In this document: one piece after another, positions 10,521 to 52,702 of the stretch
Numbering within the stretch: the stretch's first letter is position 1
How the letters are laid out: each line of letters starts with the position of its first letter
Origin: Pneumocystis sp. 'macacae'
Lineage: Eukaryota > Ascomycota > Pneumocystomycetes > Pneumocystales > Pneumocystaceae
Length of the DNA stretch: 64,000 bases
Reading direction: 5' to 3'
NCBI GenBank assembly: GCA_018127085.1
Contig: CM030720.1
Coordinates: forward strand, 434,001 to 498,000
Notes under the pieces: generated by a model
What the model was told of the DNA's origin: nothing
Seen by the model: only the letters and a program-made list of their open reading frames with translations
Databases searched by the model: none
Translations under genes and position numbers: made by a program

Positions 10521-11231
10521 TTATGTTGAAATCAGGTCCCAGAGATAGTTGGAATAGAAAAAATGGCTGTATCTAGGCTCTATACTGACTGCATGTACAT
10601 CACTGTTGTTTTTGTTCCCTAATCTATTTCAATAAAACATCACTGATAAAGCTGTTTATACGTATGATAGCTTTAGTATAGCCCCCTGCATCATCCTCAA
10701 CCAAGTCGATCCCAAGCATGCGGTAGATTTTCAGTCGGAGCCTTTGGTCGTTAGCAAGCTTCCCTTCACCATAGAGTTACAGTGTAGAGTCATCAGTCAT
10801 CCGCTCCGTCTCATCCATAACATCCTCCGACTCAAGCTGCTCCAGCTCCTCCTTCAGCCTCGAGTACGTTGCATCCAGCGTATTTATCGACAGCTCAAGC
10901 TCATTGATGTTCTTTGCAAGACTAAACTTCTCCCGATCCATCGCCAATATCACAGAAGCATGTTCCGCCCGAGACGGCGAGTTCTGGCTTGCCTGTGCCG
11001 ACGACTTCAAAAGCTCCAGCTGCCGCTGCAGCCCTTGTCCCCATCAGCCCCATCCACCCCTCCACCATACACACCCTTCAAAACCCCCCTCGAGCTTTGC
11101 TGCCTCGTCTCCCTCTTCTTGCTTGTCGCCCGCTGCGTCTCCTGGATACGCCCAATCGCCTGCACATCCAGCCCTATCTGGAACCCCGAAAGCGTCGACC
11201 CAATCAGCTCCTGCGGCGTCTCTCCTATCAT
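10521..11231 (-). CDS. SPC24: Kinetochore protein Spc24 (Ndc80 complex)
   Basis: Subunit of the Ndc80 complex; its globular C-terminus with Spc25 ties the complex to the inner kinetochore. The N-terminus from the ATG at 11231 reads [20 protein letters not shown], typical of the family. A coiled coil follows after a 39-nt intron ([36 protein letters not shown]). A second intron with donor GTAACT and a GCTAAC branch site removes an in-frame TAA, joining DDSTL to [21 protein letters not shown] third intron gives [16 protein letters not shown] and the C-terminal block [14 protein letters not shown]. Upstream in-frame Met codons (to 11315) are possible starts but fit the family less well. The gene runs from AT-rich DNA into the GC-rich island. 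Confidence 0.88.
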
Positions 11232-11326
11232 CCCGTTTGTGTTTTGTTGTAAACACCGCATCACCCAGGCAACCACCCGCTTCATCGACCTTCCGACAAC
11301 TCTCTTTTCCACCACTGTCTTTGCTT
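11232..11326. promoter_or_regulatory. Short divergent promoter shared by SPC24 and FIS1
   Basis: Only about 95 bp separate the preferred SPC24 start (minus) from the FIS1 ATG at 11327 (plus), so both 5' leaders and any promoter must be packed here. The stretch is C/T-rich on the plus strand. I see no TATA box or MCB. If SPC24 starts at the upstream Met at 11315, the gap falls to about 11 bp. Confidence 0.4.
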
Positions 11327-12035
11327 ATGGCCCACCACAGACCTTCTCTCCACGACCTCCCCTCTTCCCTCCCTGATGCTGCTGAAACAGACTCTGCACT
11401 CAGCCCACACGACCTCGATGTCCTCCGCCGCCAGTATCTCCGCGAGTCCCCCTTTGTAAGCACACAGACAAAGTTCAACTACGCCTGGGGCCTCGTCAAG
11501 AGCTCCTCCCGCTCTGACCAGCGCGACGGCGTCAAGCTTCTTTCCGGTGCGTCTCTTCATCCCCCTCCTCCCGGCCCCCAACCCTACCCTACCCTACCCT
11601 ACCACCTCATACCCTACCCTAACCCTCCTGCCCTAACCCACTATCCACCCTAACCCTATCCACCGCTGCCAACCCTACCCTTACCCTACCCTCACCCTAC
11701 CCTAGCCCCGCCCTGCCGGTCTGACCTTCCAGAGATATACAGAGAGTCTCCCGAGCGCCGCAGAGAGTGTCTCTACTACCTCGCCCTCGGCCTCTACAAG
11801 CTCGGCTCCTACTCCGACGCCCGCCGCTACAACGACCTCCTCCTCGACAAAGAGCCCCACAACATCCAGGCCCGCCGCCTCCACGCACTCATCGACCACC
11901 ACCTCACCCGAGGCACGCCCTCCCCTCTCTTCCCTGCTAACCCTCCCAGACGGCTATCTCGGCATTGCTATTTTTGGCTCCCTCCTTGCCCTCGGAGGCC
12001 TCCTCATTGGCTCCTGGGCCCGCCGCAGAAAATAG
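11327..12035 (+). CDS. FIS1: Mitochondrial fission protein Fis1
   Basis: Tail-anchored outer-membrane protein of mitochondria and peroxisomes that recruits the fission machinery. Three exons give about 160 residues, close to the family norm. An N-terminal arm is followed by [20 protein letters not shown] and [20 protein letters not shown]. The TPR-like core is [20 protein letters not shown] and [35 protein letters not shown] leads into a C-terminal membrane anchor ([17 protein letters not shown]) ending in a basic tail (RRRK). Intron 1 (11547-11732) is long and telomere-like. Intron 2 (11913-11949) uses a GC donor (GAG|GCACGC) with a GCTAAC branch site. GC-rich codon use is unlike genes outside the island. 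Confidence 0.93.
11547..11732 (+). repeat. Telomere-like CCCTA/CCCTAA-rich intron of FIS1
   Basis: This 186-nt intron is about four times the usual length here. From about 11580 to 11705 it consists mainly of CCCTA units with scattered CCCTAA units (for example CCCTACCCTACCCTACC). The minus strand therefore reads as degenerate TAGGG/TTAGGG repeat, which resembles the common fungal telomere repeat. The donor is GTGCGT and the acceptor CTTCCAG. It joins KLLS to EIYRES in frame. Confidence 0.8.
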
Positions 12036-12163
12036 CATCCTCGCCTGTGTCTCTCCCACTATTTCTGCTGTGCCCTGTGCAGTCCTGCTCTTTTTGCCCC
12101 TCCTTGCTGTATTTTTTTTCACCCCTCCTCTCAGCCTTCTTCGCCCCCGTGCTTGCACGCTGC

Positions 12164-13497
12164 ATGGACACCGCGGACTCCGCTCGCTATTTTTGCCACG
12201 CGTGCACCACTGAGTTTGCTGCTGCCGCACACTGTCCGGCATGTGGCAGCGACTTTGTCGAGGCGGTGGGCCTGTGCTGTGCATATCTGCGTCCAACTGA
12301 CTCTGCAGATCGAGTCCGCCGACGACCCCCGCCAGTTTGCCCGTCCCCCGCGCGGTTGGCTCTGGTCCTTTGCCCACCGGCCGGTCACAGTATGCGTCCC
12401 GGGTGCAGCGGCAGACAGCAGCCGCGAGACAGCCGACACAGACAGCGGATGCCCGGCAGACAGCGAGACACAGACGCCTCTGTCGGCACAGTTTGAGACA
12501 ATGCTGCAGAACATCCTGTCAAGCATTGTCGGGAGCAATGCAACAGTCGACATTGCTCTGTGCAACACAGGGCCGCGGACAGAGAGTGGGGAGGGCGAGC
12601 GGGGACGGCCAAGCAGTGTTGTCTTCCGGAGGTCGTTTGTCTGGTCGCGGCAGCCCGAGAGGGCGGAGGGGGGAGAGAGCACAGAGGGGCAGACAGAGAG
12701 AGAGGGTGGAGAGGGAGAGAGAGGAGAGGGAGGGAGCAGCGGACGGACAGCACGGGTGGCGGTGCACGACTTGGCGTCGTTCCTGGAAAACGCCTTTGGG
12801 CGGGGGGGAGAGGGGGTGGGGGGGATCTTCTCGAATGTCTTTACAATGAGGAACCCGGGAGACTATGTCTGGGTAAGGGAGGGGGTGGTGGAGGGGGCTG
12901 ATGGAGACAGTCGTCGGCGGGGTTTGACAACATTATTACACAGCTGATGGAGCAGTATCCATCGACGAATGCACCGCCGCCGGCACCGGAGGAGGTGATT
13001 GGGGCACTGCCGAGGACGGTGGTTGGAGAGGGCGGGAGTGGGGGGGCAGAGCTGAAGGACTGTGCGGTCTGCAAGGAGAACTACGAGGCGGGGGAGACAT
13101 ATGTGACGCTGCCGTGCAGACACTACTTGTGGGGAGAGAGCAGTGTGGGGTAGGGCTGATGATCGTAGTCATGACAACTGCATTGTGCCGTGGCTGAAGA
13201 TCAACAGCACATGTGCAATATGGTGGGTGGGATGGAGTGTGTGGGGTGGCTAATGGGGCAGCCGTGCGACGGTGGGGACGGGGGAGACGGGGGAGACGGG
13301 GGGGCGGTCGGGGGGAGAGAGGGGGAAGGGGGACGAGGAGGAGCTGGAGCAGGAGCCTCCAGACTGAGGACGGGGGAGGGAGGATGCACGGAAGAATGGT
13401 GAGTGGTGCAGAGCATGTTTTGGATGGGGTCAGCAGCGGCGGGGTGTTTGGAGCTGGATGTCGTCACGGAGTTTGTGGAGCTCGTCGGTTTTTTTGA
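12164..13497 (+). CDS. RING-H2 E3 ubiquitin ligase, RNF115/RNF126-like
   Basis: Probable E3 ligase. The N-terminal zinc ribbon characteristic of the RNF115/126 group is visible ([11 protein letters not shown] and [14 protein letters not shown], the latter joined over an intron). A Gly/Glu/Arg-rich low-complexity tract lies in the middle (about 12570-12760). After it, [17 protein letters not shown] and [14 protein letters not shown] lead to the RING-H2: [19 protein letters not shown], then RHYF joined by splicing to [18 protein letters not shown] and RSL. All eight zinc ligands can be placed. The fourth intron (13223-13349) is made of G-rich near-repeats. The 3' end is uncertain: the reading used here stops at 13497 and overlaps the END3 stop on the other strand. 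An extra small intron could change the last residues. Confidence 0.82.
13223..13349 (+). repeat. G-rich intron of the RING gene with GGGGGAGAC repeats
   Basis: Intron of 127 nt (donor TG|GTGGGT, acceptor CTGGAG) that joins STCAIC to RSL. It contains GACGGGGGAGACGGGGGA-type near-tandem repeats around 13275-13310 and many runs of three or more G on the plus strand. Such runs could form G-quadruplexes in DNA or pre-mRNA. The splice junction is inferred from the conserved RING end. Confidence 0.6.
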
Positions 13498-14835
13498 TGA
13501 GGTATGAGCCGAGGGAGTCGACCTGCTGCTTCATCATGAGGATGTCGGCGTGGACGGAGTCCAGGTCGGAGAGGCCGATGGCGGAGCGGATGTTGCCGTC
13601 TTTTAGTCGTTTTAGCTCGTTTTTTTTGAAGGCAAGCATTGTCTCGAGTTGGTGGATGGTGTCTAGCAGGAGGATGTCGGAGGCGCCGGGGGTTTCCTCG
13701 ATGTGTGGGTGGCGGGGGCCTGGATGTCGTCTGTTCTCGCTGCAGTAGCTGTCATTGGCCGCATGTTCTTTAGAAAGACTAGACTTTGTGCCGGGAGACG
13801 TGTGTTTTGAAGATTGCAGTGAAGATATGTTTTGTTGGTTGTCATGGCTGATAAATGTTTTTCTTATGTTGTAGCTTGCTGAATTTTTTTCAAAAAGACT
13901 TTTTAAATTAGCAGGAAGAGTGTTTGGCACCCGAAAACCCTTATTTCTTTGATTTAAAATATGAAGGAAAAAGATAGTCTGGTCCTTGTCAATTGACTCA
14001 TGAAGCTGGGGGTTCACCAGCTTCCTGTTGTGTATTGTCACTAAGGACTATAAACAATGATGATCATACCATGCATCTCGAAGTTCTGTATCTGATATAT
14101 CTAAAATCGCATATAAATTTTTCAGGGTATCAACTTAAACAGGTTAGCCCTGTAGAACGCTTTCTCTAGACTTACAAGATATGTATCCATATGAATCAGC
14201 AGTTGATGTATATATTGTTTCGTAGTTTTGCTTATCAGATGGTTGTATATGCCAATCAAAATCATATCGCAAGGCCTTTAGAAGTTAGCACCAAATTGCC
14301 CGCTTGCAAAGTTTATACTCGTGTTTTATTTGGGATTTTCATGAACTGCTGTCTTTGTACATTTTCATTAATAGCCTGACGGGCAGTAATCAAATGAGCC
14401 TTTGATGTTGGAATCAAAAAATCCGGTAACTCTGCAGGAACCTCAACATAGACCTTCATAGATGAGATATACTGTTTTTTCTTTGTTTAATACATACATT
14501 GTTGATGACATCGAATATTAGCCGCATCGCAATACAAAACTCTTCAAAGTCAAGATTTCCATCACTATCGATGTCTCCATAGACTAAACATACTACACAG
14601 CATAGAAAACACAAACACAATACCTGCTAGATTCCATATCTTTTCAAGCTGGTAATTAGATAATTTAGAGTTTTTTAGCACATCAGCTGCTTGATCTCCA
14701 CTTAAATATCCATTTTTTGGATTTAAAGAAATAAAAATCTCCCTGAAAAAAAATAAGCCATTTTCTTATATATATGTTGGCTAATTAATCTTCTTACCAG
14801 TACTTTTTTTGTTCTTCTGTAGTTATTTCTTCCAT
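13430..14835 (-). CDS. END3: Actin-patch/endocytosis protein End3 (EH-domain protein)
   Basis: Component of the Pan1-Sla1-End3 complex that couples actin assembly to endocytosis. The start at 14835 gives [13 protein letters not shown], joined to [35 protein letters not shown] and [20 protein letters not shown] complete an EH domain with an EF-hand loop. [20 protein letters not shown] and the second domain ([30 protein letters not shown]) follow. The latter is spliced to [20 protein letters not shown] and [20 protein letters not shown]. The C-terminus is the End3-type coiled-coil pair (about 13435-13680). The 5' exons are AT-rich, whereas the last 300 bp are GC-rich, so one edge of the GC island falls inside this gene. 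The stop at 13430 overlaps the predicted RING gene end. Confidence 0.9.
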
Positions 14836-15749: not shown

Positions 15750-18700
15750 CTAACAATAAAACGATGTCTTTTGTTTAGTAAAAAAATCATCCATAAAATA
15801 TCGAAAGGAAGGTAAAAAAGGTGTCAAATGAAAAATTATGAGAAAAAATGACAAAAAATTAACCAAATGATGCACAAAATATGTATAATATAGTCCATAA
15901 ACAGTTAAAAGAACAGAAAAAACCAAAAAAAGAATATCAAGCGCTTTCCCTGCACTAAATAGTGTCAATATATATAAAGGAAAATGTCTAGTTCTTACCC
16001 TGGTTCCGCTTGCATAATCATTTTCTTATTAGCCAAAAATTCAACAAGAACAAGAATAGGCAAAATAGAAAAAATGTTATGATGGGATGAAAACGGTAAT
16101 ATCCAATTTATCGATATTTTCCTTAGCCATACAATTAAAATTGGAACATTAATGGGTAAAAGTAATAACATCAATATTAAGATGGAATGGGCATAATTGT
16201 AAAAGTTTTGATAATAAAAAGCTTTTTCAAAATCCTAAAATATAAGTCTTGAAAAAATAAATGTTCATTGTACCCTTTTTTGTGTATTTATTAATGCTTT
16301 GACAGATGTAAAAAACTGTATAACACATGCAAAAAGATATGCAAGTTGATAAGGAACCATAATAGCTACAAGAAATAAGAGTAATATAATTGCTATTATT
16401 CTTTGCTTAAATTTCAAACCAGAAAAATAAAAAGAACAAAGGAATCGTCTAATAATTAATACTCAATTGACTTAAAAAACAAGTATACCTTCTATTAATA
16501 AATCTAATGTAATGCTTTCGTAATAAATTGTATTGAGTAGCAGCAAAAGAAATAACAAAATATGTTACTTGTGCAAATATAAATGCGAACCCTAAAGAAA
16601 TAGTAATGAAAAAAGGTCCTAAAAACCAGAAAAAAGAATCTCTATATCCAAAGAATATATTATTGTTATTCCATAACTTCCATGTATTTTTGACCCATAA
16701 TTTTTCTCTCAATTTTGGATTAAATAAATCATCCATATCTATTGTTTTTGGAAATTGAAATAAAGATAAAAAAACAAATAAGAAAGATGCTATTATAGAT
16801 AATGATAGAAACGTGTCTCGCATAAAAAGTTCTAATGCTTTATTGAAATTAATAAAAACACCTATATGTATTAAAAATTTCGAAAATTTTTAAATTACTA
16901 TACCATAATTATTATAAATCTTAAACTGTTTTTTTAAAGATAACAATGTTATGACATATGTAAATATGATTAAAGCTGTCCAGAATTTAATAGCAAGTTT
17001 TCCAAGACTACCATAAAAATCAAGAGATATTGAGATATCGATAGGCTTAGTACAGGTAGGATCTAGCCAAAACCGTATTGTTAGCCCACGTTTTACACCA
17101 TTCTCAATAATAGGAGGCAAAAATGGAGCAGTTCCATGAAAGTTAACATCAATCTTTGTCATATTAACAAAATATTTAGATTCATATGGAGTAGATATAT
17201 ATTGCTTTATAACAGGAGGGAAAATTGAATGATCTGCAAGGTTTCAAAAAAAAAGAACAAAAAACAGAAAAATTACCACAACCAAAGTAATTCATTTTCA
17301 ATTTATATGTAAAGAGACTATTATCAATCCCAGGAATATTAATATCCGAAACTAATGGTCTATTAGCACCCAAAGTTATGCGAAACACATTCCATGGAAA
17401 TTCTAGTTTTAATTAGAAAACTAGCATAATAATAATAAAAATTACTTGTGGGTTTAATCCTAGATTGAACTTGTACCACATTCTTATTAAAAAATTCAGC
17501 TATTAAAAAGCCTTTTCGGCTCTTATTTATTCTATCCACTACCGCAATGAATTGATAATCATCAAGTTGGCTATTTGTATATTCAAGATATGTGAAAAAA
17601 TATGCCTGAATTTTTTTTATATTAGTTTGTGAAGGTAAGCGAATAAGATCTTCTTTAGAATCTTTGCATTTTAACATTTTTAGATCACTTTCTGTTAAAT
17701 TTTGATAAAATTTAAAATTCGAATTCTTAGTCATAAATGAAGGATGAAGTTTACACAAAAATATCTTTATTTGACCTTTATCTGTCTCTGTAACTCTCTG
17801 ATCTGTAAATAATGAAAAGGTAGTAAAATTAAATATGTTTCTGGAAGAAATTGGGAAGAAATATACACGCTGACAATCTGATGATTTTGCTTCAAAAGAT
17901 TTTAAGACATAACGATTCCTTGATGGAAGAACATCGTATACTGCATTTCTTTTTAAAAATGGACTAATCAATGGAACTAATAAAGAGATTAGATATTTAA
18001 GGAAAAAGATACGAAAAACCACCTTTCGAAAACTTGTTTTCAACAGAATCTTCAATAGACATAAGATAATATTTTTTGAAAATATCAATACGAGAAGATA
18101 ATGGTTTGGTTTGGTTCACAGATTTGGAATCAATGATGTCAAACAGTGATTTAACGATGACTTTACGTAACTGATCGCACCACAAAATTGCTTGGTGATC
18201 CATTCCAGTCCATACCATAGGAATCGATGAAGAAAATACAGTAAATCCATGAGATTTAGGAACCAAAGAAGATACATCACAGTAATCCGAAGACACCATG
18301 ATGTCTAAATTCCCACCAGTGATAGATACAAGACTAACAGCGTTCAATGGATTTGATTCATTTTTATAAAAATAAGATCGTGACCAAAATTTATTTACTG
18401 AGTCATAAATATCCTTCATTTTTCGGTCAAAAAGAATAGGCGGCAACAAGTGGGGCGTGGAAAGCGTAATTATCGTATTTATCGAGCCCGAAAGGTAATT
18501 AGGCATCGTCATCATTGCACGGACCACTATACCCCCCATTGAATGGCCAATTACAATCACAGAGCTTGGAATATACGTTTCTGATGACACATTTTTCTCT
18601 CTTTTTACTTTCCGGTACAACGACAAGATATATTTTACTGCTTCGTTTGAATAATCAACCTGGTCAAGTAAAGTTTGACCGTGAAACGCCGTAAAATCAT

Positions 18701-19423
18701 TGTTAAAGTCCACTATTAACATATTAAAAAACTCGCCCTTAAAAAACCTTAAAGATCCTTCAACCTGCAAAAAAATCTAAATTTTTTTCATACTGCTTAC
18801 TCAATATTGGGTCCAACTTCAACATAGAGTAGTGATTTGCTGCTTCCGATGCAATGCTCCGCACCTGCTTATAACTTCCTGCATTTCCTGGTATAAAAAG
18901 AACTGGAATCCCATAAAGCTATACATGATTAATACCAAATCATTTGGATTATCTAGAAAAACACTACATCTTGCAAATTTCCTAACTTTTTTTCCCGATA
19001 CATATAAAGACTATACTTGTCCGCATGCTTTGTGTATCTCTTATCAAATCCAATTAACTTCATGTATGAGGGATACATTGCCGGCACTATACACACCGAC
19101 TTATCTCGTTGCAGATATACAAATGAATAGCTCATCATTCCAAGCATCACCACCGAAAACCCCGCTATCAGAACTATTCCTGCTCTCAGTATTCCACCTT
19201 TTCTCTCCCCCATTCCCTTTCTCTCTGCCATCTCCTCCCACTTTCTTGTTATCTTCCACCACTGTTTTCCTTGCTTCCTCTGCTTTTCTTTGTTGGCCTT
19301 TATCCCTGTAAATACTCTTCTCCGCTTGCATCCTCTTCCCCCTCCTACACGCCTGTCAACTACTGCATCATTCAATCTGCAACTCCTCTGCCGGCATTGC
19401 CCATCTCTTTGGTGCTGCATCAA
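15750..19423 (-). CDS. BST1: GPI inositol-deacylase Bst1 (PGAP1-like)
   Basis: ER membrane enzyme that removes the acyl chain from the inositol of GPI anchors before export. The N-terminus is basic, then one membrane segment ([19 protein letters not shown]) and the luminal block [20 protein letters not shown]. After an intron, [20 protein letters not shown] gives the alpha/beta-hydrolase oxyanion region. [17 protein letters not shown] carries the nucleophile Ser, and [14 protein letters not shown] follows. A long luminal beta-rich middle part and several C-terminal membrane segments (about 15750-17000) complete the protein, roughly 1000 residues. Met at 19423 is the most upstream start in frame; later Met codons before the first membrane segment are possible. 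The first exon is noticeably richer in GC and purine-strand biased than the rest of the gene. Confidence 0.88.
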
Positions 19424-20648
19424 CTCTTAACCCTTGCAAATATCATCTTTTACCAGGCTGCTGCTTCTGCAGCCTCCCAAAGCCCTTGAAAACACCTGCT
19501 ACACCTGTATCTGTTTTCTAAGCGCTGTTTTTCTAATTGCCTATCCTTGCTAGCTCGTCCTCAGTTTTCCTGTCGTTACTACACTTGTCTGTAGATGCCT
19601 GTCAGACCTCGATCCAAGTATTCGGTCCCGAGCACGGATCATCGGACAAAAGTGTTATAAGGCTGAAAGCAGTTGAACAAGCAATCTAAAAAAAATAAAA
19701 GTAAAAATATTGTAAGAGAAAAATATACATGTACCTACCCGTGTAATAAGAGGTATCTGCATCGCCTATGTGGGGCATATGCGTCTACACACCTGGCTGT
19801 ATGTACCATTCTCCTGGACACACTATGTGTATATAATCACATAACACACATGCACACCTCATATGCCTAGTCCTTTCCCTCCCAACCCGTCTCTATAGCA
19901 TTCTTATGCCATTTTACCCTATTTTATCACTTTTTGCCTCCACAGTGCTCTGTGATTTATTATAGTCTTTGCTTTAGCAGACTCGTGCTTATCTCTTAAT
20001 GTCTCACGTTAGTATTTTTCTGGATAATTTAGTATGCAAATCTTTCCGAAAATGTTTCAGCGTTAGACTCTTGTGCGCTGAGAATTTATAAAAGTACGGG
20101 CACTTCGAGGAATCAGCAGAGCGCCTTCGACAGGCGTTACAAGCTTTTTAAACAGCTTAAAGTAACCTCAAGGCGGATTTAAAAGATATTTTAAAGGGGA
20201 CTTTGAGAAAACTCAAAAGAACTATTCAAATAAGGTTTAAATAACATTTGAGGAGCGTTTAAATAGTATTTGAAGAATTTAAGCATTTTTAAGGTGGTGA
20301 AGAAGCAGAGTTTCTTTCTTAGTACCTGTTAATACAAGAAGAAACAGTAGAAACAGTAAAGGGTCTTTTCAGGCTGTTCTAGGATTCTATATTAAGGATT
20401 ACTGAAGGATATTGGGAGCTACTGAGTGTTGCTGAAAGTTAATAAGACTGCTAAGAATTACTAAAAATTATTGAAGGTCACCAAAGTTATTAGAAAGAAT
20501 ATTAGAGTTGTTAAGAGTGTAGTGGAAGGATATTGTCATTATATACTAGATAACGGGGTATAAGGCAATATAAAGAGGATAGCAAGAGAAAGACAAACGA
20601 GACACTATAGTAAAGCGGATATTGTATAAGTAGTAGTTATTGGACGAG
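19424..20648. other. Long divergent intergenic region between BST1 and GIT1-like gene
   Basis: About 1.2 kb without a credible ORF. The left part (19,430-19,900) is C/T-rich with CATATGC/TGTATATA-type words near 19,780-19,870. The right part, from about 20,090, is purine-rich on the plus strand. It holds repeated TTTAAA/GTTTAAAT words (20,140-20,300) and then imperfect short units of the TACTGA/TGCTGAAAG/TTACTAAAAA kind (20,400-20,520). I read the right part as a long transcribed leader or regulatory region of the permease gene. Confidence 0.5.
20087..20094 (+). promoter_or_regulatory. TATA-like box upstream of the GIT1-like gene
   Basis: TATAAAAG lies 555 bp upstream of the start codon and just before the purine-rich leader begins. 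If used, it implies a leader of about 500 nt, unusually long for this compact region. There is no experimental support; the call rests on sequence and position only. Confidence 0.3.
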
Positions 20649-51200: not shown

Positions 51201-51970
51201 CGCTTCCATATACCCTTTTGCTGTATATTTCTACACCACTGCCCTGCTTATCACATACCTTTTCTCATATAGTGGCCCCTTCAGATTTGTCTCTCCAGGC
51301 ACACTTGTATCGATATACACTGCATGATCGTCATCTTCCCGTTCCAGCCGAATCTCTAGTTCTTTTGAATGGCGAGAAAATGCCACTATCTTTGCACTAT
51401 ACAACGCTTCGCCTGTCAGTCTGTACTAAACGCATACTACAACGCTCATACACGACATGTCGTGCATATGCTGTGTTATATACTGTGTATATATGCTATA
51501 CATGTGCACCACGTATAGGCACCAATACCTATATACTCATATCCTGTATACAATGCATAGAGTATGTATACAACTATATACTATGAATATATAGTCTATA
51601 TCCTACTATACTGTGCATTGAATGCATACATATACACGCGTATATGCGTCGCTCACTGGCACACTCCGCCCCACATACCTAGAATATGGTTTGCTATTGT
51701 CCCCACACTCTCTTTCTGGAAATACATGTCGTCAATCCCCAGATTTTCGTAGAACCATCTCGTCTCACTTTTCACCAAATCTCGAGGAATAAACCCCTGG
51801 TCTTCTAGGTGTGCAACAACTTCGTGCATTTGCTCTCCCTTTCCGTCGAAATGGATTTCTGAGTATCCTGGCGTGCCGTCTGACAGCCGGTGATCCCGCG
51901 GAGTCACGCCCATCTTAAGCAGATGTGCCGGTATACCGCCTTCTGACGCTCTGCAGATGTCAATCGGCAT
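48298..51970 (-). CDS. GDH2: NAD-specific glutamate dehydrogenase (large type)
   Basis: Large (about 1040 residues) NAD-dependent enzyme converting glutamate to 2-oxoglutarate and ammonium. The start at 51970 gives MPIDICRASEGGIPAHLLKM. YSEIHFDGKGEQMHEVVAHL and GFIPRDLVKSETRWFYENLG follow, then GIDDMYFQKESVGTIANHIL. After a 271-nt intron, ALYSAKIVAFSRHSKELEIR continues. RTFNIYQGVVESVLNRTGPV and RKYVEQFSNG joined to VTVICIYLIP lead to a single 2.2-kb catalytic exon. That exon holds FRLNPDFLPEI, GSEFRGFHLRFRDVARGGIR, KDIPEGGAKGVILLD, TGGPDGDLGSNEIILSRE (dinucleotide binding) and YIVEGANLFIAQDAKLKLEE. The C-terminus is FEFMNNYLQKTSIC. All family blocks are present. The promoter side faces a spacer rich in TATATGC words. 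Confidence 0.94.
51408..51678 (-). repeat. 271-nt GDH2 intron with TATATGC/GTATAC words
   Basis: Joins IANHIL to ALYSAKIVAF (donor CTAG|GTATGT, acceptor GCGAAG). Filled with the same GCATATG, GTGTATATATGC, CTATATAC and ACGCGTATATGC words seen in the 625-nt intron at 41 kb. It is the only long intron in GDH2. Confidence 0.75.
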
Positions 51971-52702
51971 CAGACTGGTTTCCTATTATATGCAGAGTTG
52001 CACACGCCAAGACAGGCCTTTGGCGGTTTGTTCGGCGTGTCTGCACTTACTCTGTGCAAAGCCCGTGCTATGTGTCAATGTATACGCTATATATGTAGCA
52101 AAGGACACATGGGTGTTCGTAGGTGATTAAGTAGAGAGCCCAGACCAGGGAAAGGCATAGTGAGATAGTCGAATATACACAAAAGATGTAATATCCATGT
52201 GCAGAAGCATATATATACGCCTGAATGCGGAATATATGCTCATGAATGCAGAATATATGCGCAGAGATTGCGGAGTGTATACAGATTGGAGCTCGAGCCG
52301 CCTCAATATACCGGCGACAACAATATCGATAATCGAGTGTCGAGAACCGTGGTGTTTATATACTATCCACAGAAATGTCACAGGGAATATGTGCATATAT
52401 AAACGCACATCGCCCTAAAAGATGTCTAGAAATGAGCTGTCAGCCAATGGTATTGGTTATGTTCGGCTTTTTTGCTGTTACAGCGACAGCAGTGGCACTT
52501 ACTGTTCTTTGGGTTGTTTCATAAGATGACAGTTCCCTTGACTAATGGTGATAGTTTATCCATGAAAAAACAGGTAAACACAAATAAGCTGCAAAGAGAA
52601 ATAACAGCGTATACACTGTGTAAATAAATGATTTGTGACGCATTTACTCGATGTATTTGATATATTTTGCCATTGGTCAAATAGTATGCATATCTATATA
52701 TT
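51971..52702. other. Spacer GDH2/COG4 with TATATGC-type words
   Basis: About 730 bp between the GDH2 start and the COG4 stop. GC is locally higher than in other spacers. From 52,060 to 52,280 it contains repeated TATATGC/GCATATA words, including near-duplicates around GAATGCGGAATATATGCTCA and GAATGCAGAATATATGCGCA (52,212-52,265). Short coding-looking strings occur on the plus strand, but I could not build a gene from them. Confidence 0.45.

Follow-up and report, generated by a model that had tools for sequence, protein, structure and literature searches.

Introduction

At recombination hotspot centres of Saccharomyces cerevisiae, a reversed GC skew has been reported as a profile averaged over hotspots, drawn from 1000-bp sequences (PMC8276760). 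Human meiotic hotspots are described as carrying 1-2 kb of single-stranded DNA (ssDNA) on each side, with a mirrored mutation asymmetry in which C>N and A>N changes fall on the overhang (PMC7615360). Mouse non-crossovers have been explained by a strand-aware repair model that includes a pathway restoring the base of the recipient strand (PMC6715734), and in a mouse-cell annealing assay the outcome of a mismatch was reported to be decided by strand, not by base (PMC9001825). In this study, we analyzed a window of 64,000 nucleotides of Pneumocystis sp. 'macacae' (hereafter P. macacae; GenBank assembly GCA_018127085.1, contig CM030720.1, positions 434,001 to 498,000 of the forward strand) that holds a GC-rich island at 10,681-13,762 (window coordinates throughout). 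The left half of the island is C-rich and the right half G-rich on the + strand. This mirror-image skew is the main feature of the island and is absent from the preliminary description of this DNA. The likeness to the S. cerevisiae average lies in the opposite sign of the skew on the two sides of a centre; that report gives an average profile, whereas the P. macacae islands show the skew at each locus alone, over 3-5 kb and with GC doubled (PMC8276760). Judged by its composition signature, the island is probably a hotspot of meiotic double-strand breaks, and the genome has several dozen candidates of this kind.

Pneumocystis is reported to have no established long-term culture, and no recombination map for the genus was found in the literature searched. 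No report of such islands was found among the matches listed from the open-licence literature on Pneumocystis recombination hotspots, GC content, gene conversion, centromeres and GC skew, which was partly judged by title. The phrase 'Pneumocystis macacae' combined with genome, GC content and recombination retrieved no paper, a search that papers writing P. macacae would escape. The terms 'GC content' and 'skew' are absent from the main text, in the part available, of the Pneumocystis genomes paper that covers P. macacae (PMC7940399).

Results

Strand skew changes sign at the centre of the island

The maximal-scoring segment has a GC content twice that of the remainder of the window (0.603 vs 0.299). 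Over the extent given in the preliminary description (10,560-13,850) GC is 0.587, again against 0.299, and the island in an AT-rich genome that it had claimed is confirmed: elsewhere in the window the maximum GC of an island-length stretch is 0.398, and 500 block shuffles of the remainder peak at 0.378. The same description had exons, third codon positions, introns and spacers switching composition together. Introns and third positions are indeed GC-rich, but GC is lower, at 0.51 and 0.56, in the two spacers for which it was determined.

On the + strand, every 200-bp bin between 10.8 and 12.2 kb has a GC skew of -0.29 to -0.57, and every one between 12.6 and 13.8 kb has +0.33 to +0.60; the AT skew switches sign where the GC skew does. 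On the coding strand, FIS1 (+) and the island part of END3 (-) are C-rich, and SPC24 (-) and most of the RING gene (+) are G-rich. The first bin of the RING gene has 43 C and 25 G at third positions, and the last has 57 G and 17 C. Introns follow their side as well, with 102 C vs 15 G in FIS1 intron 1 and 20-23 G vs 2-3 C in each of the final three RING introns (intron coordinates approximate to 1-2 bases).

Islands of the same polarity occur across the genome

A sequence search of the genome with both run types gave clusters of G/C runs on all 16 large contigs. At least about 46 candidate interior clusters, including the island of the window, were counted by eye among the matches listed; the count leaves out homopolymers and contig ends, and some candidates rest on one run. 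Most large contigs have several candidates. Eleven islands were read at the sequence level, namely that of the window and ten others (L029-L038). The ten were picked from lists showing run letters, a choice not strictly blind to polarity, and none that was read was dropped. They span 3.2-5.3 kb (L037 reaches the end of its stretch) at GC 0.60-0.66, and each of the ten is C-rich on its left side and G-rich on its right. The flip taken from cumulative skew is chosen by skew and so favours polarity; the analysis was therefore repeated with a split at the midpoint, which is blind to skew, and the skew was negative on the left and positive on the right in 11/11 islands. With this split, the pooled left halves have A.185, C.417, G.206 and T.191, and the pooled right halves A.189, C.226, G.398 and T.187, against a background (the window outside 9.5-15 kb plus stretch L028) of A.358, C.152, G.141 and T.350. 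Most of the gain in GC thus comes from a single base per side, C in left halves and G in right halves, and the remaining strong base is up by about.06-.08. At about 3 kb from the centre, the mean profile of the islands has come close to background.

Among the matches listed (100 of 160 and 100 of 164), interior clusters of 5 kb or less with both a C-run and a G-run had C on the left in 14 of 14 cases, nine of them unread. Before this polarity was predicted for further islands, run letters had been visible for three of these nine and a single run for each of two more; the other four were entirely new. The count hardly covers contigs after C10 and takes in only clusters with both run types.

Skew is set by position in the island, not by gene strand. 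Of 50 long open reading frames in the ten islands, 17 had a Pfam match (TBP, URA3-type decarboxylase, eIF4G, adenylosuccinate synthetase and ribosomal proteins among them). Left and right of the flip, the + strand skew at third positions was -0.57 and +0.41 for + genes and -0.45 and +0.55 for - genes in an analysis omitting sides of fewer than 15 codons, and with them eIF4G, one of the 17 frames, entirely. With the midpoint split, which omits none, the values were -0.47 and +0.43 for + genes and -0.44 and +0.47 for - genes. The expected sign was found in 15 of 18 gene-by-side rows.

Smaller GC peaks (about 0.45) at window positions 18,500-20,500 and 51,500-52,500, with skew passing from negative to positive, are perhaps weaker hotspots. 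An identical 18-base G/C run near the ends of several contigs probably belongs to a repeat or gene family of the subtelomeres.

Changes peculiar to P. macacae are polarised

Sites were scored as peculiar to P. macacae where the other compared Pneumocystis proteins all agree and P. macacae differs; shortest codon paths were reconstructed, equal paths were averaged, and the partial P. oryctolagi protein was omitted from the RING comparison. At 38 sites in the right half, G was gained 47.3 times and lost 1.5 times, and C gained 4.0 and lost 15.3 times, with C>G at 13.5 vs G>C at 0.5. At the 11 sites of the left half, C was gained 8 times and never lost, G was gained 3 and lost 8 times, and G>C stood at 5.5 vs C>G at 0. 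Unambiguous changes alone gave C>G 7 and G>C 0 on the right, and G>C 3 and C>G 0 on the left (Fisher p 0.008). Classical GC-biased gene conversion leaves G/C exchanges unaffected, so their polarity points to a strand-aware process.

A bias from weak (A or T) to strong (G or C) bases (W>S), proposed in the preliminary description as a check, was present in the right half (W>S 37.3 vs S>W 2.8 with averaged paths; 16:1 among unambiguous changes). The left half gave 5.5 vs 2.5, too few to judge, with no excess among unambiguous changes (1:2).

END3 also bears on the age of the island. Its P. macacae-only residues fall in 10 of 106 columns inside the island vs 2 of 262 outside (p 1e-4), and P. jirovecii-only residues number 0 inside and 3 outside. 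The ratio GARP/(GARP+FYMINK) over residues 261-375 is 0.44 in P. macacae vs 0.13-0.28 in five relatives; over the first 100 residues it is alike across species (0.25-0.29). GC at third codon positions (GC3) in END3 stays at 0.28-0.29 in both 500-bp bins above 14.0 kb, rises to 0.56 at 13.5-14.0 kb and reaches 0.74 (23 codons) below 13.5 kb, which bears out the gradient from AT-rich 5' exons to a GC-rich 3' end noted earlier. These comparisons indicate that the GC-rich END3 end is derived in P. macacae and that the right flank is young. The GARP share of FIS1 is 0.62 in P. macacae, 0.58 in P. jirovecii, 0.55 in P. canis and 0.46-0.48 in two rodent species, and part of the FIS1 rise may be older and common to P. 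jirovecii and P. canis. The long-term, fixed hotspot first proposed thus stands only in part: the GC-rich END3 end on the right flank is specific to P. macacae and absent in P. jirovecii, but the weaker FIS1 rise is shared. The middle of the P. oryctolagi RING protein is of GC type (GARP share 0.77), with a G-, A- and S-rich insert. More than one lineage may therefore have had a hotspot here, P. oryctolagi perhaps having an independent island at the same place.

Genes of the island and native origin

From left to right, the island holds most of SPC24 (-), then FIS1 (+) and the RING-H2 E3 gene (+), and finally the 3' end of END3 (-), all intact spliced frames with a Pfam match (Table 1). The FIS1 and END3 models are 83% and 79% identical to P. 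jirovecii, respectively, and the public PMAC_000172 and PMAC_000173 have 94% identity to the RING model, over 42% of its length, and 98% to the END3 model, over 47%, respectively.

Table 1. Features of the island (window coordinates).
Feature	Position	Strand	Basis and remarks
GC-rich island	10681..13762		maximal-scoring segment, GC 0.603
C-rich half	10681..12399	+	GC skew -0.38; A.17 C.41 G.18 T.24
Centre, sign change of GC and AT skew; putative break zone	12100..12500		200-bp bins; cumulative-skew minimum 12,399
G-rich half	12400..13762	+	GC skew +0.39; A.20 C.19 G.43 T.18
SPC24, crossing left edge	10624..11231	-	hand-spliced model, Pfam Spc24 3.1e-20
FIS1, entirely inside C-rich half	11327..12035	+	Pfam Fis1 TPR; introns 11547-11732, 11913-11949
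GC-AG intron 2 of FIS1, donor GCACGC	11913..11949	+	gene model
RING-H2 E3 ubiquitin ligase gene, straddling flip	12164..13367	+	Pfam zf-RING_2 9.3e-13; third positions C to G along gene
END3, crossing right edge, GC-rich 3' part	13430..14835	-	Pfam End3 7.2e-14; GC3 gradient

The island is native DNA, because its frames are intact and spliced, three of its genes have neighbouring locus tags in other species, and similar islands are many. The tags for END3, RING and FIS1 adjoin in P. murina (PNEG_00976-00978), P. carinii (T552_00713-00711) and P. canis (PCANB_001746-001748). SPC24 and END3, said in the preliminary description to cross the edges as intact spliced genes and so to argue against contamination or misassembly, do so with Pfam matches.

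The FIS1 donor GCACGC looks as if it were a GTATGT-type site after T to C changes. The public P. macacae END3 annotation has only 221 aa, and the P. jirovecii FIS1 annotation has a 14-residue stretch at the site of the P. macacae GC-AG intron; both may be misannotations arising from unusual introns. FIS1 intron 1 is C-rich, with degenerate CCCTA/CCCTAA runs resembling the telomere repeat at two contig ends, and these runs may perhaps just be C gain on a pyrimidine-rich intron.

Discussion

A two-ended break whose 5' ends are resected would have just this layout: a centre flanked for about 2 kb either way by changes that mirror each other and fall on opposite strands. In the explanation that we favour, breaks would form near 12.1-12.5 kb, the 5' ends would be resected by roughly 1.5-2 kb on each side, and the 3' overhang would be the + strand at the left and the - strand at the right. 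Repair would enrich the overhang strand in C, with A, T and G all giving way, which would read as C on the + strand at the left and G at the right. We infer, from composition, the centre as a break site, the halves as resected tracts and the repair step. Whether the drive at hotspots is C-biased on one strand (the 3' overhang) and acts on A, T and G alike, instead of being GC-biased, we regard as evenly poised, a rating lowered slightly because the ten islands had been picked without strict blinding. The repair step might be a strand-aware heteroduplex correction, in which C on the overhang of the broken chromosome would be kept and other bases opposite a donor G would be corrected to C; this step we put forward tentatively, at somewhat under an even chance. 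C/C mismatches are reportedly poorly repaired, and a literature search on C/C mismatches in fission yeast found nothing. The genome encodes a Spo11-type domain (TP6A_N), two UDG-family loci and three HhH-GPD loci.

The P. macacae islands are best read as an extreme, locus-by-locus form of the reversed skew known as a hotspot hallmark. Skew of opposite sign across the centre, a secondary hallmark of break hotspots, was found in 11/11 read islands and in 9/9 unread mixed clusters among the matches listed. Smagulova 2011, cited by the S. cerevisiae hotspot study, is reportedly mouse work. The island tracts of about 2 kb per side compare with 1-2 kb of ssDNA per side in human hotspots, and the likeness extends to the mirror-image strand asymmetry (PMC7615360). 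The mouse gene-conversion model offers W>S drive at hotspots and a recipient-strand restoration pathway; it restores G or C alike, whereas P. macacae favours only the overhang C, with polarised G/C exchanges (PMC6715734). A variant restoring only C on the recipient overhang would give the observed pattern, a step that we infer. High-GC gene clusters of gerbils are similar in that a GC drive alters conserved proteins; they differ in that 'GC skew' there denotes GC gain, the scale is that of chromosome regions and clusters, and no centre flip was seen in the part of the report available (PMC7403616).

Several observations weigh against this explanation. Human overhang C and A are reported to mutate away, whereas the P. 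macacae overhang gains C, the opposite sign for that base (PMC7615360), and the direction of the S. cerevisiae skew could not be read from the available part of that report (PMC8276760). The left half offers just 11 informative sites and lacks a W>S excess among unambiguous changes (1:2 vs 16:1 on the right). In the third-position analysis, L44 in L031 and S23, twice, in L034, which lie at the flip, had the wrong skew or none (2/16 frames, 3/18 rows). Among k-mers of 6-9 bases within 300 bp of the 11 flips no centre motif stood out, the best 8-mer, present in 9/11 centres, being no higher than the best of 200 off-centre draws. The weaker GC peaks of the window followed the polarity rule at just one of three scales, and no weight is placed on them: r was -0.004 for a half-width of 500 bp, 0.165 for 750 bp and 0.302 for 1000 bp, values equalled or exceeded by 279/556, 59/536 and 0/516 circular shifts, respectively.

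The most serious rival keeps the hotspot and replaces correction by mutation. In this sub-case, which shares the probability given to the hotspot, strand-specific fill-in errors would place G across from A, T and G on the overhang, whether these are damaged or not. It would cover the G/C exchanges and requires no heterozygosity, and human hotspots are reported to be mutagenic with strand asymmetry over the resected tract (PMC7615360). The polarity in human hotspots is different, and an exon-by-exon genome search, which can miss intron-split domains, gave no match to the Y-family translesion polymerase domains PF00817 and PF11799, perhaps through gene loss; the lack of a match makes fill-in by those enzymes less likely. 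We hold it to be unlikely, but still worth serious attention.

A replication origin, with opposite leading- and lagging-strand biases on its two sides, is a different matter. Origins are usually marked by a jump of the skew from negative to positive, and the islands are bidirectional. Fork bias would be expected to extend further than the 2-3 kb or so per side to which the skew is limited, ending with the GC gain; instead, mean skew drops to about 0.1 or less at 2.6-3 kb from the centre. Fork bias alone would also not double GC, and an origin is accordingly rated as quite unlikely.

The preliminary description had favoured a recombination hotspot acting through GC-biased gene conversion. The mirror-image skew backs the hotspot indirectly. 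Ordinary strand-symmetric conversion, with skew as a secondary matter, would explain the GC gain, the sharp island and the W>S excess of the right half (37.3 vs 2.8), but it predicts equal gain of G and C on each strand and unpolarised G/C exchanges. Both predictions fail, the gain being of one base per side and the exchanges polarised, so that the symmetric form is insufficient and, as a full account, improbable.

Foreign DNA, misassembly or a former subtelomere would suit the sharp edges, the CCCTA runs of FIS1 intron 1 and the telomere repeat CCCTAA at two contig ends. Against these stand the adjoining END3, RING and FIS1 tags in P. murina, P. carinii and P. canis, the intact spliced frames, and the conserved genes held by similar islands. 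At the left contig ends, 13 of 16 contig starts have GC of 0.39-0.43 over 10 kb, and none has a centre flip; six have C-rich stretches of 1-2 kb with GC 0.51-0.63. An ancient subtelomeric location, the other explanation offered earlier, does not fit, because the GC-rich END3 end is evidently derived in P. macacae, and the group as a whole is very improbable. Most contig starts (L009-L024) show strong one-signed skew (to -0.75) over several kb at GC near 0.4, which is probably related to gene families.

Transcription-linked gene skew or purine loading has equally little to recommend it: in unicellular fungi the coding strand is reported to be generally C-biased at the 5' end and G-biased at the 3' end (PMC3315797), but a C to G bias along the gene occurs in 0/4 island genes, and the skew of the other islands tracks side, not gene strand. 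A centromere is barely credible. The island is genic, unique and a few kb long, and skew jumps are known at Candida centromeres. The islands are, however, GC-rich (0.60-0.66 in those read), with several candidates on most of the large contigs, unlike the mapped centromeres of P. murina and P. carinii, reported with GC 3.9% below the genome and one per chromosome (PMC10327204).

If the islands are break hotspots, sequence alone yields a map of hotspots that includes their centres and the lengths of their tracts. GC gain at hotspots is usually put down to symmetric GC-biased gene conversion; polarised G/C exchanges would point instead to a strand-aware drive and make the repair step testable. 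If the drive is indeed C-biased on the overhang, one genome would record, per locus, the break sites and the reach of resection or heteroduplex, and would expose a strand-aware repair bias that is normally hidden under the strand-symmetric label of GC-biased gene conversion. For P. macacae itself, conserved proteins (END3, FIS1 and the RING ligase) have been shifted in amino-acid composition by an apparently non-adaptive process.

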